From: a virus
DNA length: 36,553 bases
IMG/VR virus record: IMGVR_UViG_3300025410_000048
Location: 1 to 36,553 of that record
Direction: 5' to 3' (one strand)
Positions 3,444-36,553 of this stretch are shown here, piece after piece. The translations under genes were made by a program, and so were the position numbers. Position 1 is the stretch's first letter; each line of letters opens with the position of its first letter. Below the pieces are notes generated by a model. The model was not told the DNA's origin, did no database searches, and saw nothing but the letters and a program-made list of their open reading frames with translations.

Positions 3444-4178
3444 TTAAAAGACAATACAAGGGCTACGGTAATCAATGCTATTGTTGTTGCCCTTTTCCCT
3501 GTTACATCTCCCACAAAGAGGCTGAAGATTGTTTATATCCATAGCCAATTCAGGGTAATACTTACGGGGCTTTATATGGTCAATATTGATTGGATAACGC
3601 CTTGACCCTACTCTCCCGCACTTACAACACTTATTGCCGTACTTCTTTATTGCCTCAAGTCTTAACTGTTTCCAACTTTTATTGACAATAAATTTTCTGC
3701 TGGTATTGACTATCAACTCCGCGTATTCGTTATTGGACAAGGGTTCGCGGTCTATTCTCCATGAGTTAATCATGGCTCTCTTTAATAATTTATGTATGGT
3801 TTTACTCATATCGTATCTACTTATCCCAAACGGTTTGAGCGCACCTAGCCTATCCTTAGGTGCCTTCAATAACTTTCCCAGTACGGAATCGCTACACCCG
3901 CCAGTCGTTCGTAGAATCGGCACTAGCTTCGCCACCGATATGTGCGGTATTACATCTACTTTCCCCCAGTCCGCTTGTATTGCAATCGCTGGCGTCATTC
4001 CCGTCCGATTACAACCGTTACGGAATAAAGTAGTAGGAATAGAAAAACCCCTTAGCGGATACTTTGTAGTGAAGCGGCTTAAATAAATGCTCTCATACTT
4101 ATTTAAGCCTACAAAATACCCGTTAAGGGGTTCTAACATCATACGGGCTTCACTCCGCGACATGGTGATTATAAACAT
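3444..4178 (-). CDS. HNH endonuclease, probably free-standing homing type
   Basis: The C-terminal part is a clear HNH nuclease with a structural zinc site: CCKCG (Cys184, Cys187), INIDHIKPRKYYP (Asp200, His201), MDINNLQPLCGRC (Asn217, Cys222, Cys225) and then Asn226. HNH enzymes cut DNA with one metal ion. In phages they act as mobile homing enzymes or, for some, in packaging; isolation from the terminase argues for the former. The first 120 residues are unusual and their start is uncertain. Another ATG at 3809 (MSKTIHKLLKRAM) would leave a more typical 121-residue nuclease. No ribosome binding site decides between them. I see no convincing flanking intron. Confidence 0.75.
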   Translation of the reverse strand: MFIITMSRSEARMMLEPLNGYFVGLNKYESIYLSRFTTKYPLRGFSIPTTLFRNGCNRTGMTPAIAIQADWGKVDVIPHISVAKLVPILRTTGGCSDSVLGKLLKAPKDRLGALKPFGISRYDMSKTIHKLLKRAMINSWRIDREPLSNNEYAELIVNTSRKFIVNKSWKQLRLEAIKKYGNKCCKCGRVGSRRYPINIDHIKPRKYYPELAMDINNLQPLCGRCNREKGNNNSIDYRSPCIVF

Positions 4179-10053: not shown

Positions 10054-11712
10054 ATGAGAATCCCAGAGAACAACGAAGCTAGAGAAATTTTTTATCTTGA
10101 TTTAATTCAAAAGTGTCTAGTTTCGATAGATGAGCGCAAAGCGGATTACTCATCTTTGCGTTCATGGTTCTTGTTTGGCAATGGTCCAGATGAAGGTCCG
10201 GCAATCTTTAATAAGATTTATCCGCATATTGACCAGCTTACCAGCTTTTTATACTCGGCAGAAACAACACGATTCTCAATCAATACTGGCGCTGCGGTAC
10301 CAACGCTAGAACAAATTAAAGTCCCAACCTTAACAAAAGCCCTTAATGATGAGTGGCTTAATTCCAATGCAGACCAAGTGTTTAGCTTGGCATTGACATG
10401 GGCTTTAGTGTTCAACACAACTTATGTAAAACTGGTGATGAATAACGGTATTCATCCGTTTATGATTGAGCCGTCATCTATGGGTGTATTGCGCGAAGAT
10501 ACGCCGCAATCTGATAGACAAGAAGCCATTGTTCAGATTTATTACATTACTCGCAGCGAGTTGTACAACAGACTGTACAAGCATCCTAAGCGCGAGCAGA
10601 TTGTTAAGCGAGTCACTTCAGGCTATCACGCTAAAACCGATGAAGTTCCTGAAGGCGTTAATCGAATTATCATGTCACAGTCTCAACCTGAGATGTACGG
10701 TAATGTGGATTTAGACTTAGCTGGCATGAATCGTTATAAAGCTCGGGTAGCTGAAGACACAATCAAAATGCACGAACTTTGGGTATGGAATGACGATACT
10801 CAAGACTATCAAGTAGTAACAATGGCAGACCCCGATATAGTTATTTATGACCGTCCGGGCGCGTCTTTATTTCTAAAGGGCGAATGTCCTTTTGTTCAGA
10901 TTACTCCTAACCCTCAGTTTGATTATTACTGGGGCTTGTCAGAGGTTCAGCGCCTTGTACAGTTACAAGGATTGCGTAACAACCGTATGACAGAGGTATT
11001 GGATTTGCTTTCTAAACAAGTAAACCCACCAACCGTATTTACTGGCTTTACTGGCATTACCGATGAGAAAGCGTTTGCTTTCCAGCGCGCAGGGTCTTTT
11101 GTGTCTAACGATATGCCTAACAGCAAAGTGGACAGACTCTCGCCTAATATGCCGCCAGAACTTTTTGAGGTGATACATGAAGTTGATGCAATGTTCGCTG
11201 AAGCTAGCGGTATCAGTAGCGTTCTTAGTGGTCGTGGCGAGCAAGGTGTACGCTCCGCTGGACACGCAAGCCAATTGGCTAGACTTGGTTCAAGCCGCGC
11301 TAAGAAACGCGCTCTCATTGTTGAAGATAGTTTAGAGAAAGTCGCAACGCTATATCTCAAGCTCATGCAAGCCTATGACAATACTCACTTTTCTGATGAG
11401 TACGGCAACAAATTTATTGCAGAACAATTTACTAAAGACTTTGTGGTTAAAGTGGACGCCCACTCTAATAGCCCAATCTTTACTGAAGACTTACGCGCAC
11501 TTGCATTTAATTTATTTAAAGCGCAAGCTATTGATAAGCAATCTTTACTTGACTTGCTTGAGCCTCCGATGAAAGAATTGCTCAAAGACAGATTAAAGAA
11601 ACGCGAAGAAAATGCAGCACAGGCACAGGCAGGAGGCGCCGCTTCAGCAACACCAGCGCAGCCAAAGCCTAAAGGCGGTAAACCAGATTTGAAATTGGCG
11701 GAGGGTACATAA
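10054..11712 (+). CDS. portal protein
   Basis: This 552-residue protein directly follows the terminase group and has portal features: an early helical SYSSLRSWFLFG-like region (residue Tyr31 to Gly44), a core with TYVKLVMNNGIHPFMIEPSSMG, and a long helical region around 330-430 (ASGISSVLSGRGEQGVRSAG, then LARLGSSRAKKRALIVEDSL). It ends in an Ala/Lys/Pro-rich tail. Portals form the ring through which DNA enters and leaves the head. Assignment rests on position, size and pattern rather than a single diagnostic motif. The start follows the previous stop directly with no clear ribosome binding site. Confidence 0.82.
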   Translation: MRIPENNEAREIFYLDLIQKCLVSIDERKADYSSLRSWFLFGNGPDEGPAIFNKIYPHIDQLTSFLYSAETTRFSINTGAAVPTLEQIKVPTLTKALNDEWLNSNADQVFSLALTWALVFNTTYVKLVMNNGIHPFMIEPSSMGVLREDTPQSDRQEAIVQIYYITRSELYNRLYKHPKREQIVKRVTSGYHAKTDEVPEGVNRIIMSQSQPEMYGNVDLDLAGMNRYKARVAEDTIKMHELWVWNDDTQDYQVVTMADPDIVIYDRPGASLFLKGECPFVQITPNPQFDYYWGLSEVQRLVQLQGLRNNRMTEVLDLLSKQVNPPTVFTGFTGITDEKAFAFQRAGSFVSNDMPNSKVDRLSPNMPPELFEVIHEVDAMFAEASGISSVLSGRGEQGVRSAGHASQLARLGSSRAKKRALIVEDSLEKVATLYLKLMQAYDNTHFSDEYGNKFIAEQFTKDFVVKVDAHSNSPIFTEDLRALAFNLFKAQAIDKQSLLDLLEPPMKELLKDRLKKREENAAQAQAGGAASATPAQPKPKGGKPDLKLAEGT

Positions 11713-11879
11713 TGGCAACTAGAGGAACGGTATCTCCTAAGGCGGACCAGCCTAGGGTAAGCACTAGCTCATTGCGTGAGACTTCTGCTCCAGCAAATTT
11801 GCAGTATCGTGTACAAGGTATTAAAACATTTACTGGTAGAGATACCCGTAAAACTGGTAGAGAATTAGGTAGGGGATAA
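11712..11879 (+). CDS. 55-residue basic protein after portal
   Basis: The frame MATRGTVSPKADQPRVSTSS continues to a basic end with KTFTGRDTRKTGRELGRG. Its ATG shares one base with the portal stop. The composition (Arg, Ser, Thr, few hydrophobics) suggests a disordered, possibly DNA-contacting protein. It precedes two much smaller basic peptide genes. No family is recognised. Confidence 0.6.
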   Translation: MATRGTVSPKADQPRVSTSSLRETSAPANLQYRVQGIKTFTGRDTRKTGRELGRG

Positions 11880-11896
11880 TTTTTTAGGAGATTATG

Positions 11897-11938
11897 ATGC
11901 GTAAAAGCTATAAAAAAAGTCGGAAGACTCGTAGATAA
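11897..11938 (+). CDS. 13-residue basic peptide MRKSYKKSRKTRR
   Basis: AGGAG lies 6 bases before this ATG; an ATG just upstream at 11894 would add one Met. Eight of the 13 residues are Arg or Lys. A good ribosome binding site and a second similar peptide 80 bases on suggest a real gene. By composition it would bind nucleic acid or another polyanion. Compare the small basic DNA-binding protein J of microviruses, a similarity of composition only. Confidence 0.55.
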   Translation: MRKSYKKSRKTRR

Positions 11939-12015
11939 GGTTTCCTTCACGGGAGAAAGGGTTGTGGCTGCCTTACCCTAAAAATAGGTGACCGTATGCT
12001 CAAGGAGATAATCTC

Positions 12016-12057
12016 ATGGCACGCAAAGCACGCAAAGGTCGTAAAGCTCGCAAGTAA
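12016..12057 (+). CDS. 13-residue basic peptide MARKARKGRKARK
   Basis: AAGGAG ends 8 bases before the ATG. The peptide is a short Ala-Arg-Lys repeat, with eight of 13 residues basic, and has the same length as the peptide at 11897-11938. The ribosome binding site lies inside a small GAGATAATCTC palindrome, which could modulate translation. A perfect GNRA-loop hairpin overlaps the stop codon. Function unknown; a protamine-like or RNA-binding role is inference. Confidence 0.55.
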   Translation: MARKARKGRKARK

Positions 12058-12124
12058 TCCGTAAGGATTGCTTTGGGTGACCAAACAAGTCCTACGGGGA
12101 GGAGGAAACTAAATAAACCTCCCC
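12056..12124 (+). ncRNA. candidate structured RNA with two GNRA hairpins
   Basis: In order: AATCC-GTAA-GGATT (12056-12069), TTTGG-GTGA-CCAAA (12072-12085), then a 7 bp stem of GGGGAGG with CCTCCCC (12096-12124, 15-base loop). The first two are perfect 5 bp stems with GNRA tetraloops, separated by two bases. No U-run follows the last stem. It could be a processed leader, a terminator or attenuator of the portal transcript, or a functional RNA; I cannot choose. Confidence 0.4.
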
Positions 12125-12126
12125 AC

Positions 12127-12155
12127 TTGACAATTTGTGATAGTTAGAATAAATA
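12127..12155 (+). promoter_or_regulatory. candidate promoter before the scaffold/capsid genes
   Basis: A perfect TTGACA (12127-12132) is followed after 17 bases by TAAATA, a moderate -10. Transcription would begin near 12162, just before the ribosome binding site AAGGA of the gene at 12183. It sits immediately after a strong hairpin, a layout in which a new, stronger transcript for capsid genes could start. Confidence 0.45.
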
Positions 12156-12182
12156 GTATTTAACTGTTAATTAAGGAAATAT

Positions 12183-12668
12183 ATGAGTGTTCCACCAGAT
12201 AAAATGATGGAGTTGATTAAAAACCAACAACCCGGCGGGGCGCCAGCTCCAAATATTACGCCTGAACCACAGGCAAACGGCATGTCGGATTCTTCTACCG
12301 CTCCAATGGGTACACCAATGTCAACGCCTGAACCTAAAATGGGTAACAAAGAAGGCGCAATGGTAAACCTTTCAATGGCTCAAGACTTGTTAGAACAAGC
12401 GCTTCCTTCCGTTGGCTCAGATAGCGAAGAAGGTAAAGCAATTCTTAATGCCATTAATGTAATAAACAAAGTTATCGGTCCTCGTAAGGGCAAAACTAAA
12501 GAGTTGCAGCAATCTGAAATTTTGCAGATGCTTCAAAACTTGCCTCAAGCTGGTGGTGCAACGCCTGAAGGTACAGCAATGTCTAAAGCACCGGCAGTAC
12601 CGAATATGCCTCCAATGCCAGCAATGGCGGCGGCGGGTCCAACACCTCAACCGAGTCCAGCTCAATAA
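12183..12668 (+). CDS. Pro/Gln/Met-rich head-region protein
   Basis: This 161-residue protein has low-complexity ends rich in Pro, Gln, Ala and Met, around a helical centre (about 60-120: NLSMAQDLLEQALPSVGSDS and the following ILNAINVINKVIG). AAGGA precedes the ATG. It lies between the portal and scaffold-like genes, so a role in head assembly is plausible. No known family is recognised. Confidence 0.65.
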   Translation: MSVPPDKMMELIKNQQPGGAPAPNITPEPQANGMSDSSTAPMGTPMSTPEPKMGNKEGAMVNLSMAQDLLEQALPSVGSDSEEGKAILNAINVINKVIGPRKGKTKELQQSEILQMLQNLPQAGGATPEGTAMSKAPAVPNMPPMPAMAAAGPTPQPSPAQ

Positions 12669-34307: not shown

Positions 34308-34389
34308 GAATCATCTCCGATAAAGTGTAAATAGTGTCAATGACTGAACTTACAGCCATAATCCAGACTGCTATATCAATATTATTCAT
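34300..34389 (-). CDS. 29-residue hydrophobic micro-ORF, allele B
   Basis: Same frame and layout as at 297-386: the ATG overlaps the exonuclease stop (ATGA), and the stop lies inside the recT start. The peptide has a hydrophobic core (AVWIMAVSSVIDTIYTL). Over about 97 bases around it the two alleles differ at six positions, far fewer than in the exonuclease. This supports either selection on the peptide or an RNA or DNA element there. Confidence 0.5.
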   Translation of the reverse strand: MNNIDIAVWIMAVSSVIDTIYTLSEMIHV

Positions 34390-35288
34390 TTGACTAAGAA
34401 CCGGCGTGAACCCGGAGCCTCCATAATGAATTGGTCGTATATGTCTGGCATAGCGGCTTTAAATAAATCCGCCTGAAAGCGCTTAGAAGCCTTGCTAGCC
34501 TTCCAAGTAGCCAACACCTTGCCATCCACTCCTAAAAGCTCTGAGCCTTCTCTCATAAAGCCCTGTAATGCCGTCAAGAGCTGCTCTTCGGACTCTTCCA
34601 GCTCTTTAATCTGCGCCTTGCAACTTTTAAGCTGGTTTACTGCTCGCTCTACTTGTGCATTGGCATAGACTGTTGAGCCGTTATCCTTGGAATAGATGAG
34701 TTTGGTCTGCTCTGTTGTCTCAGGGTCTAGCGGGGTATTGGTCTCTACTGCTCCCCAAAACCTAGCCATGTCCTTTATCAGCGCTTCCTTTTGTTCCGGC
34801 GTGATAGTGAAATCAAAAGTGCAAAACTCCTGTCCACCAAAGAGGACTGCAAGTACCACTCTATCAACTTGGTGAACGGTTGCTTCGTGGATAATTTGCG
34901 CCATATCCGCGTGAGGAATAATGTTAGCTTCCGCATCAAACTTGTTGCGGACGGCTGCGTTGTAATTCTTAGCCTCCACAAGAGTTCTGCCATCGGCGCT
35001 AATAAAATCAAAGTGAGACCGTAGCCAAGTCTCTTTAGGGTGCGTAAGAGCATAAGGGGCTTCCTTGAGTTCGAGTTTGAGTTTGTCTTGTGCTAGTCTT
35101 CCGATTACGGGTTCCATTACATGACCCATACGGACTGCCTCTACCCCGTCAAGGTTAGGGCGTTCTTTTAATCCTAGCTTCTCTAAGACCGCCTCGTTCC
35201 CTCTACCATTAGCCGCCTTCCTAGAGTCTCCAGACCACCATGCACCGTTGCGTATCTCGGGCGCGAAATCTGTTCTGTCATTAGCCAT
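34386..35288 (-). CDS. YqaJ/lambda-exo-like exonuclease, allele B
   Basis: This 300-residue exonuclease has GHVMEP with Glu59, SHFDFISAD with Asp94 and LVEAKNYN with Glu105 and Lys107, a complete PD-(D/E)XK set. VLAVLFGGQEFCTF and TTEQTKLIY are further shared motifs, and a coiled-coil region lies near 215-245. It degrades 5' strands to feed RecT. Together with RecT it forms a two-gene recombination system. About 59% of residues match the other copy at 383-1285. The start overlaps the preceding gene's last codons. Confidence 0.87.
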   Translation of the reverse strand: MANDRTDFAPEIRNGAWWSGDSRKAANGRGNEAVLEKLGLKERPNLDGVEAVRMGHVMEPVIGRLAQDKLKLELKEAPYALTHPKETWLRSHFDFISADGRTLVEAKNYNAAVRNKFDAEANIIPHADMAQIIHEATVHQVDRVVLAVLFGGQEFCTFDFTITPEQKEALIKDMARFWGAVETNTPLDPETTEQTKLIYSKDNGSTVYANAQVERAVNQLKSCKAQIKELEESEEQLLTALQGFMREGSELLGVDGKVLATWKASKASKRFQADLFKAAMPDIYDQFIMEAPGSRRFLVK

Positions 35289-35463
35289 TGCGAACCTCCA
35301 TCATTTTGTCTGCAAGTCTGTAACATTCAAAGGGAATTTCATTGCTATTCCCTAAATCCCCTAGAGCTAAAATGCCTTGCAATACTTGACCAGCAAAATA
35401 ATCTCGTAAATCCATACCCCTATAACAATCTGCAACACTACCTCTGTTTGGAAATGCTTTCAT
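35281..35463 (-). CDS. small conserved phage protein next to exonuclease, copy 2
   Basis: This copy is 60 residues long and identical to the gene at 1275-1460 except for its end (Asn-Gly instead of Asn-Val-Lys), because its last codons run into the other exonuclease allele. On a closed circle this is the copy that belongs with allele B. The LRDYFAGQVLQG core suggests a conserved but unassigned role. Confidence 0.75.
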   Translation of the reverse strand: MKAFPNRGSVADCYRGMDLRDYFAGQVLQGILALGDLGNSNEIPFECYRLADKMMEVRNG

Positions 35464-35464
35464 G

Positions 35465-35707
35465 TTATTGCCCCTTAGCTAAGATGTTTACAAGTGCTAA
35501 GAAGTGATTGATTTGCTTACGGTAAAACTCTACATCTGCTAGCAAGTCGCTTACTTGGTCTTTAGCCATCTCAACAGCCGCATCCTGACGAGCTAATAAA
35601 CCCTTCAGGCGCTCTACTTCAGCCTTGGTATAGCTTTCTTTGACCTCTTTATCCTTCAACGGAAAAGCGGGTTTTACTTTGTTTTTAATACCTACGGTTC
35701 TTGCCAT
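35465..35707 (-). CDS. small charged helical protein, copy 2
   Basis: Identical to the gene at 1462-1704, including the AGGAG ribosome binding site and the TAACTAG leader. It is probably the same gene seen twice through contig overlap rather than a duplicate. Confidence 0.7.
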   Translation of the reverse strand: MARTVGIKNKVKPAFPLKDKEVKESYTKAEVERLKGLLARQDAAVEMAKDQVSDLLADVEFYRKQINHFLALVNILAKGQ

Positions 35708-35729
35708 GATATTTCTCCTAGTTAGGACA

Positions 35730-35978
35730 TTATTTGCCGAATGGGATTGTAGATAAATCGTCAAGGTCGGCATCCTCAACAATCGGGGTAAACCAGTTCG
35801 CATGAATAGAGCATGAATAGTTATCGCTACGCATCACGCTAGCAAAAGAATTGCCACGATGACCCGTTACGAGGTCATATTTACGAGCTTCAGGGTGCAT
35901 ACAGACATGGGAGTCGTGTAGCGTTGAACAATGCAAGCAGGATACGCAAAACTTTGGTTCCGGCATATTTGAAATCAT
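35730..35978 (-). CDS. Cys-rich probable zinc-binding protein, copy 2
   Basis: Identical to the gene at 1727-1975, with the FCVSCLHC cluster and GGAGG before the ATG. It is the same locus seen again at the contig end. Confidence 0.7.
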   Translation of the reverse strand: MISNMPEPKFCVSCLHCSTLHDSHVCMHPEARKYDLVTGHRGNSFASVMRSDNYSCSIHANWFTPIVEDADLDDLSTIPFGK

Positions 35979-36032
35979 TTTTACCTCCATCTAGTTAGGA
36001 CAATTAGTACGACATTACTACGATTAAAACGA

Positions 36033-36113
36033 TTATGCAATAGATTTGCGTAATTTTTTTCTAGCCTCTATCTCGCGTTGCAAGATATACCAAAAATCAG
36101 ACTTGATTGGCAT
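36033..36113 (-). CDS. 26-residue basic peptide, copy 2
   Basis: Identical to 2030-2110. The same reservations apply: a fair ribosome binding site but overlap with the upstream gene in another frame. Confidence 0.4.
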   Translation of the reverse strand: MPIKSDFWYILQREIEARKKLRKSIA

Positions 36114-36396
36114 TTAATTGCTCCCTCATAGCCTTTAATTCAGCCTCTAGCATCTCTATCTCAGCTTGTTGCTGGCGTAGCATGGTGGCTGTCTGCATAA
36201 ATCTTTCGCCAGAAAAACCATTAGCCCTAGCTTCAGAGGCTTTATCTCCTTGAAATTCAATCAGTTCATTTACGTTCAGAGAAGTCCACTTAGGGTTTAC
36301 TCTTTTCCATATATGTTCATATGTGTAGCCTAGCGCAAGAGCTTCTGCCTCGGTAAATGCGAGCCTGTTTCCATCTTTGTCGTGAAATATAATCAT
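36097..36396 (-). CDS. small coiled-coil protein with LRQQQAEIE module, copy 2
   Basis: Identical to 2094-2393. The ATGA junction behind CAAGAGAA is also present here. Confidence 0.7.
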   Translation of the reverse strand: MIIFHDKDGNRLAFTEAEALALGYTYEHIWKRVNPKWTSLNVNELIEFQGDKASEARANGFSGERFMQTATMLRQQQAEIEMLEAELKAMREQLNANQV

Positions 36397-36553
36397 TTCT
36401 CTTGTGCCTTTAACATTGGTTCAATTGTTACTGTTTCCCATTTAACTTCCCCAGTCTTAGGGTTTTTCCACCCATGCTTTGTGTAGATTGCTGGATAAAT
36501 ACAAGACGGATGCCAATCAAATCTAGTTTCTTGCACCGCCACAACTTCTAAGT
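36393..36553 (-). CDS. AQEK-ending protein, copy 2, start cut by window edge
   Basis: This is the C-terminal part of the gene seen complete at 2390-2575. The window ends about eight codons short of its ATG. The visible part is identical. Confidence 0.55.
   Translation of the reverse strand, partial: LEVVAVQETRFDWHPSCIYPAIYTKHGWKNPKTGEVKWETVTIEPMLKAQEK

Follow-up and report, generated by a model that had tools for sequence, protein, structure and literature searches.

Strongly basic 10–15-residue peptide genes beside the portal gene of uncultivated phages, one of them usually framed by RNA pseudoknots

Microvirus protein J (phiX174 and relatives) is tiny and very basic and is encoded in a capsid-gene block, as are the peptides described here; it is longer than they are, and it belongs to ssDNA phages with another capsid. 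In T4, genes 67 and 68 adjoin the portal gene. The T4 prohead core proteins gp67, gp68 and IPI–III are small internal proteins present in hundreds of copies, and several of them are dispensable (PMC9958956). These core proteins are several times longer than our peptides and resemble them in gene position only; the analogy is a loose one. At the RNA level, the 5' pseudoknot of T4 gene 32 and the initiation region form an autogenous operator (PMC535899). The locus compared here with these systems lies in a 36,553-nt window (the whole stretch of DNA analysed) from an uncultivated virus record. Hundreds of uncultivated phages carry strongly basic peptide genes of 10–15 residues between the portal and scaffold genes, and one such mini-gene is usually framed by RNA pseudoknots.

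The head-gene block and its two mini-genes

The head block is bounded by the portal gene (phrog_1216; PF23899 SU10_portal) and the major capsid protein gene (phrog_9953), and the interval from portal to capsid contains, in order, a 55-aa ORF, A, B, a 161-aa gene, a 61-aa ORF and a 176-aa gene (Table 1). An earlier note on this DNA, made from its letters alone, had placed A and B between portal and scaffold. Their place in a head-gene block stands, but the 55-aa ORF separates A from the portal gene, and the label "scaffold" is given by gene position only because the 161-aa and 176-aa products have no family match in PHROGs or Pfam. Relatives of the 55-aa ORF share the consensus PKADQPRVTT..L.R....P.LQYR, and a search of the PDB with this family gave no match. 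A resemblance to T7 gp6.7 (PF17570) was dropped (E 0.016, below the cut-off, in 1 of 33 members).

Table 1. Features of the portal-proximal interval in window coordinates
Feature	Position	Strand	Sequence or structure	Basis
55-aa ORF	11712..11879	+	KADQPR motif	overlaps portal stop; conserved among relatives; neighbour of A
SD of A	11886..11890	+	AGGAG	sequence; SD-like site precedes great majority of A frames
Gene A	11897..11938	+	MRKSYKKSRKTRR, stop TAA	kept in 101/110 unbiased loci; pN/pS 0.36
Optional hairpin before PK1	11941..11956	+		predicted in window
PK1, H-type	11959..11993	+	S1 GGGT/ACCC, L1 TGT, S2 GGCTGCCTT/TAGGTGACC	covariation, 76 sequences
SD of B	12002..12007	+	AAGGAG	sequence; SD sites in relatives
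Gene B	12016..12057	+	MARKARKGRKARK, stop TAA	kept in 103/110 unbiased loci (strict filter); pN/pS 0.41
PK2, H-type	12090..12124	+	S1 TCCT/AGGA, S2 GGGGAGG/CCTCCCC	compensated stems; shuffle comparison
Promoter-like -35 hexamer before 161-aa gene	12127..12132	+	TTGACA	recurs in relatives

As the earlier note had read them, A and B are of equal length (13 aa, with eight Lys/Arg apiece), each has its own SD, and exactly 77 bases (11939–12015) separate them. Its remark that almost nothing else in this region is non-coding fits less well, since no long ORF occupies the 125 nt after B and the 77-nt gap itself holds a conserved structured RNA. A tandem ATG at 11894 offers A an alternative start (MMRK...), but the AGGAG lies 6 nt from the second ATG and just 3 nt from the first; given this spacing and the alignment of relatives with the 13-residue form, we favour the 13-residue start. 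A and B are the sole ORFs of 8–20 aa with an ATG, an SD and at least 55% Lys/Arg on both strands of the whole window, and 30 shuffles of the window yielded none. Neither a signal nor an amphipathic pattern was seen in either peptide.

The PHROGs and Pfam searches have a lower limit of 20 residues, above the length of A and B; run on their neighbours and on the longer peptides of deep-clade relatives, they gave no name. No family model covers the A/B cassette, and catalogues of small phage genes may hold these families unnamed. Open-library literature on pseudoknots and on basic or protamine-like peptides of phages contained no description of the cassette, in line with the earlier statement that no counterpart was known. 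Among 50,697 phage records, the sole close relatives of the window are two GenBank records from Manatee Spring. In the annotation of MW202753 neither peptide is called and two antisense ORFs are drawn over the region; these hypothetical genes (MW202753.1, 4740–4877 and 4874–5038, minus strand), which cover the peptide and RNA region, are probably spurious.

Elsewhere on the contig, ends 1250–2550 and 35253–36553 overlap with 99.3% identity over 1.3 kb, and the remaining end overlap is only partly similar, its exonuclease-like ORFs (383–1285 and 34386–35288) being 59% identical. The contig is probably a join of two strain variants, with a true genome of ~34.0 kb. A match to the Betaproteobacteria-1 RNA (RF02932, 96 bits) at 3896–4015 (minus strand) hints at a betaproteobacterial host; it sits inside or just upstream of an HNH-endonuclease-like ORF (3444–4178), perhaps reflecting an RNA–HNH association.

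Conservation and selection on the peptides

Relatives were gathered through IMG/VR portal and capsid searches blind to the peptides, giving 110 distinct usable regions, of which 95 have both peptides, 8 have B only, 6 have A only and 1 has neither; one locus scored as A only (L131) has a longer B-type ORF missed by the filter. In some tables about half of the loci were fetched by pattern and are therefore biased, and unbiased counts are reported apart. A is typically MYKKMKRGRKTRR, and B is typically MRKARKGRKSRK, MARMKRKGRKGRK or MARKARKGRKARK. L185, L258 and L269 have one more basic 13-mer upstream of A, of the MARKSKKGRKSCK type and likewise preceded by an SD.

Estimated pN/pS was 0.36 for A (123 distinct sequences) and 0.41 for B (105 distinct sequences), and the true values are probably lower because pS is near saturation. 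Arg-5 and Lys-4 of A and Lys-1 of B are invariant, synonymous codons vary in both genes while the residues stay, and the +2 frame of B is interrupted by a stop in 99 of 102 sequences. Judged by these substitution patterns, A and B are real genes under purifying selection, which bears out the earlier reading of them as genes; the roles that it put forward, neutralising packaged DNA, binding RNA or acting at the portal, are possibilities. That reading had named frames broken within conserved flanking DNA as evidence against it; loci that lack a peptide lack the entire unit and do not carry a decayed copy, yet one lineage group lacks both. The lineages without either peptide (L157, L403, L405, L408 and L414) indicate that the peptides are not essential in all lineages. 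In window-type lineages without mini-genes the 161-aa protein is more acidic (mean charge -8.7 versus about -4), possibly as compensation or through shared descent; though suggestive, this was set aside, being confounded by descent.

RNA pseudoknots and the deeper relatives

Covariation places an H-type RNA pseudoknot, PK1, inside the A–B gap. Across an alignment of 76 diverse copies, 92.9% of cells are paired, 74 cells carry double changes (17.2 in shuffles) and the covariation score is 0.270 (0.097 in shuffles); none of 500 shuffles matched these values, and sliding the partner strand destroyed the covariation signal. Stem 2 occurs as GGCTGACTT/AAGTTGGCC, GGCTGCATT/AATGTGGCC, GGCTGCCCG/CGGGTGGCC and further variants. 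Nested folding of the window's PK1–B stretch alone was no better than shuffles (z +0.79), which is unsurprising because half of the pairs form the pseudoknot and are invisible to nested folding; the case for the structure therefore comes from covariation. Many relatives, though not all, have a TTCCCC-GNAA-GGGAA type hairpin before PK1. Positions 11700–12300 of the window had no Rfam match up to E 5, and ten loci had none at the gathering threshold in the peptide/RNA region.

A rule-based finder recovered PK1 in 212 of 266 regions, compared with 2.5% of shuffled regions, and a basic mini-ORF lies just downstream in 210 of these 212 loci, starting 20–23 nt after PK1 in 172. Searches of records with R1, our PK1 model, returned one strong copy in each of five PK1-bearing records and no substantial copy in those of L134 and L414; we attribute to chance a second PK1-like site found in the L134 genome. 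Some deep loci (L330, L280 and L401) have B without a recognisable PK1. A is lost and PK1 and B are kept in L024, L026, L052, L074, L075 and L129; PK1 and B are lost and A is kept in L126, L133, L134, L135 and L145; in L157 all three are gone. These patterns show that PK1 belongs to B, whereas A is a separate gene. In L045 an inserted ORF of ~50 aa parts A from PK1. A does not behave as an attenuator leader of PK1, as the two are lost independently and the L045 ORF stands between them.

A second pseudoknot, PK2, follows B. Its stems change in compensated fashion, reading UGUC/GACA with GGACGGC/GCCGUCC in L111 and CAUC/GAUG with GGCAGUU/AACUGCC in L129. It was found in 169 of 208 B-bearing relatives, usually 1–6 nt before TTGAC, and in 3.3% of shuffles; the evidence lies in this shuffle rate, as the finder itself selects complementary stems. 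TTGACA or TTGACT occurs at most 110 nt from the 161-aa gene in 197 of 231 relatives, and no clear -10 element follows TTGACA in the window. At the deep loci L366, L353 and L433 a T-tailed terminator-like hairpin after B takes the place of PK2, suggesting that the B message terminates after B. At L433 (5500–5900), on a contig binned as Saccharibacteria, this hairpin accompanies PK1 and a B identical to that of the window (MARKARKGRKARK).

Viral contigs were also scanned with one pattern for the core of the RNA and one for the C-terminus of B, and true copies, among the matches listed by both scans, are confined to this lineage, including its deeper members. Among the matches listed, 13 RNA-pattern matches outside the lineage had no accompanying basic mini-gene or portal relative and were judged chance, as was a B-pattern match in L294. 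Further samples, picked without regard to the peptides, came from capsid searches started with two deep members. Of the 60 loci scored in the L252 sample, 47 carry a basic mini-ORF, which in many cases resembles MARRHRRHKRK, and 39 of these 47 also match the RNA pattern; the loci without one belong mostly to one group near L157 and L414. All ten loci of the L297 group have such an ORF (e.g., MITRNRRKGRKHRK or MVFERNRRGRKHKRK), directly preceding the 161-aa gene homologue. A basic 12–14-mer is retained while portal identity drops to 27–33%. The peptides MARRHKRSHKRK and MLSKNRRRGRKGRR come from contigs in Patescibacteria and Verrucomicrobia bins, the bin names being no proof of hosts.

Some deeper relatives carry arrays. 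Five basic mini-genes of 11–21 aa are present in L401, and six ORFs of L356 satisfy the mini-gene filter. Upstream of the 161-aa gene homologue, L401, L402, L356, L366 and L389 have 4–6 basic mini-ORFs, several of which share an RGGGG(K/R)YA(R/H) motif. No comparable pair was present in the isolates Mx8, Mx9, BUCT555, ppBjS10J-1 and a TM7 phage, which have distantly similar capsid proteins, or in two uncultured records; the annotation of SU10 shows just one gene, of 79 aa, from portal to scaffold, and no cassette-bearing isolate was found. The observation in the earlier note is confirmed and was undersold. That account did not include PK1 and its tie to B, the PK2 fold, the fact that A and B are independent of each other, or the deep arrays.

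Possible functions and comparison with known systems

Our preferred explanation, to which we give a probability of roughly 0.45, is that A and B serve head assembly as protamine-like peptides that bind nucleic acid in bulk, and that translation of B is controlled through a pseudoknot, possibly autogenously. Both would be translated as 13-residue, +8 peptides of the head-assembly block and, made beside portal and scaffold, would work in bulk as protamine- or J-like binders of phage DNA or RNA that join the inside of the procapsid or reduce charge while the genome is packaged. The end of PK1 lies approximately at the upstream edge of the B ribosome footprint, so PK1 probably sets B translation, and free B could plausibly bind PK1 and hinder the 30S subunit as autogenous control. 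PK2, ahead of the promoter-like site, may serve to close off the message of B or shield its 3' end. Genome comparison shows that the peptides are under selection, that PK1 and PK2 fold, that PK1 is linked to B at a set spacing and that A is independent; translation, nucleic-acid binding, head location, autogenous control and the role of PK2 are what we infer.

Composition is kept more than sequence, as in the basic 12–14-mers at 27–33% portal identity, which fits a charge-based binder, and the 4–6 different basic mini-genes arrayed in deeper relatives argue for a bulk product. Selection acts on charge more than on sequence, a genome has several different basic peptides, and their position next to the portal and capsid genes is fixed; together these observations point to a bulk head-assembly role, and the locked spacing of PK1 to the B start codon indicates translational control. 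Counting against a bulk role, thousands of peptide copies would be required to neutralise a genome of 34 kb. A bolder version, which we regard as rather doubtful, is a phage head system in which arrays of 10–20-residue Arg/Lys peptides are dosed by gene number and one member is autoregulated by a pseudoknot at the footprint edge; if true, it would be among the smallest protein–RNA regulatory circuits known.

The strongest rival, possible if doubtful, holds that A and B are whole-protein arginine-rich regulators of PK1, PK2 or other phage RNAs that control late-region translation, termination or mRNA stability, their head location being incidental. The tight PK1–B linkage, spacing and joint loss suit it, as do the second pseudoknot downstream of B and a size and charge resembling known arginine-rich RNA-binding motifs. 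However, several lineages keep A without PK1 or PK2, the deep arrays of dissimilar basic peptides have at most one PK1, and in the L297 group, which does have the peptide, no PK1 was recognised. That the frames are leader peptides, in which slow passage of ribosomes through Arg/Lys runs regulates the genes downstream and the product itself has no role, is improbable: residues are conserved while synonymous codons vary, loss or retention of A does not track PK1 (and the L045 ORF is inserted between them), as many as 4–6 mini-genes stand in tandem, and a promoter-like site separates B from the next gene in most relatives, even though the frames are short, lie upstream of structural genes and, in the L297 group, immediately precede the 161-aa gene homologue. 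We see little likelihood that the peptides are directed at the host, acting late in infection on ribosome, RNA polymerase, membrane or nuclease. Cationic 10–15-mers can act on membranes, ribosomes or nucleases, and sequences drift rapidly in deeper clades, but the place among head genes is constant in very divergent phages and no signal or amphipathic pattern was seen. Two covarying pseudoknots flank B, and PK1 and B are lost jointly, as would be expected were the PK1–B–PK2 stretch a functional RNA (e.g., stable or packaged) with a secondary B frame; this is very improbable in view of the purifying selection on B with variable synonymous codons, the conserved SD and AUG spacing, and the terminator-like hairpins that stand in for PK2 at some deep loci. 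Chance ORFs or a low-complexity artefact, for all that the frames are very short and simple in composition, are hardly credible given the empty shuffles and the retention of the frames, with SD sites and selection at the codon level, in hundreds of divergent contigs.

If the bulk head-assembly reading is right, genes of 10–15 codons would be standard head-region components in a large group of uncultivated tailed phages. Phage annotation has a blind spot for such genes, which lie under the usual gene finders' length limit, and so has proteomics, since digestion with trypsin would leave pieces of the peptides too short to detect. The cassette would be a minimal natural system for peptide–nucleic-acid binding and pseudoknot-coupled translation, and PK1 and PK2 are two searchable RNA motifs.

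Among known systems, microvirus J neutralises nucleic acid, the role proposed for A and B, as a loose analogy; in contrast to the ssDNA microvirus context, the neighbours here are terminase, portal and tailed-phage capsid genes, and the genes come in sets of 1–6, one with a pseudoknot leader. The arginine-rich motifs of lambda N and HIV Tat are likewise short Arg/Lys-rich stretches of similar size and charge, but there they belong to larger proteins whose RNA targets are known, whereas in A and B the motif is the whole protein. A possible likeness of B is to the mRNA pseudoknot operators of ribosomal proteins (S15 and the alpha operon), where a basic protein acts on a pseudoknot at its own start; PK1 differs in having no Rfam match and in lying upstream of the SD, which is not within it. 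Although the product here has 10–15 residues, stems and spacing differ and repression is a proposal, the nearest precedent for PK1 and B is the operator of T4 gene 32, which encodes a nucleic-acid-binding protein; it is likewise an H-type pseudoknot 5' of the ribosome-binding region.
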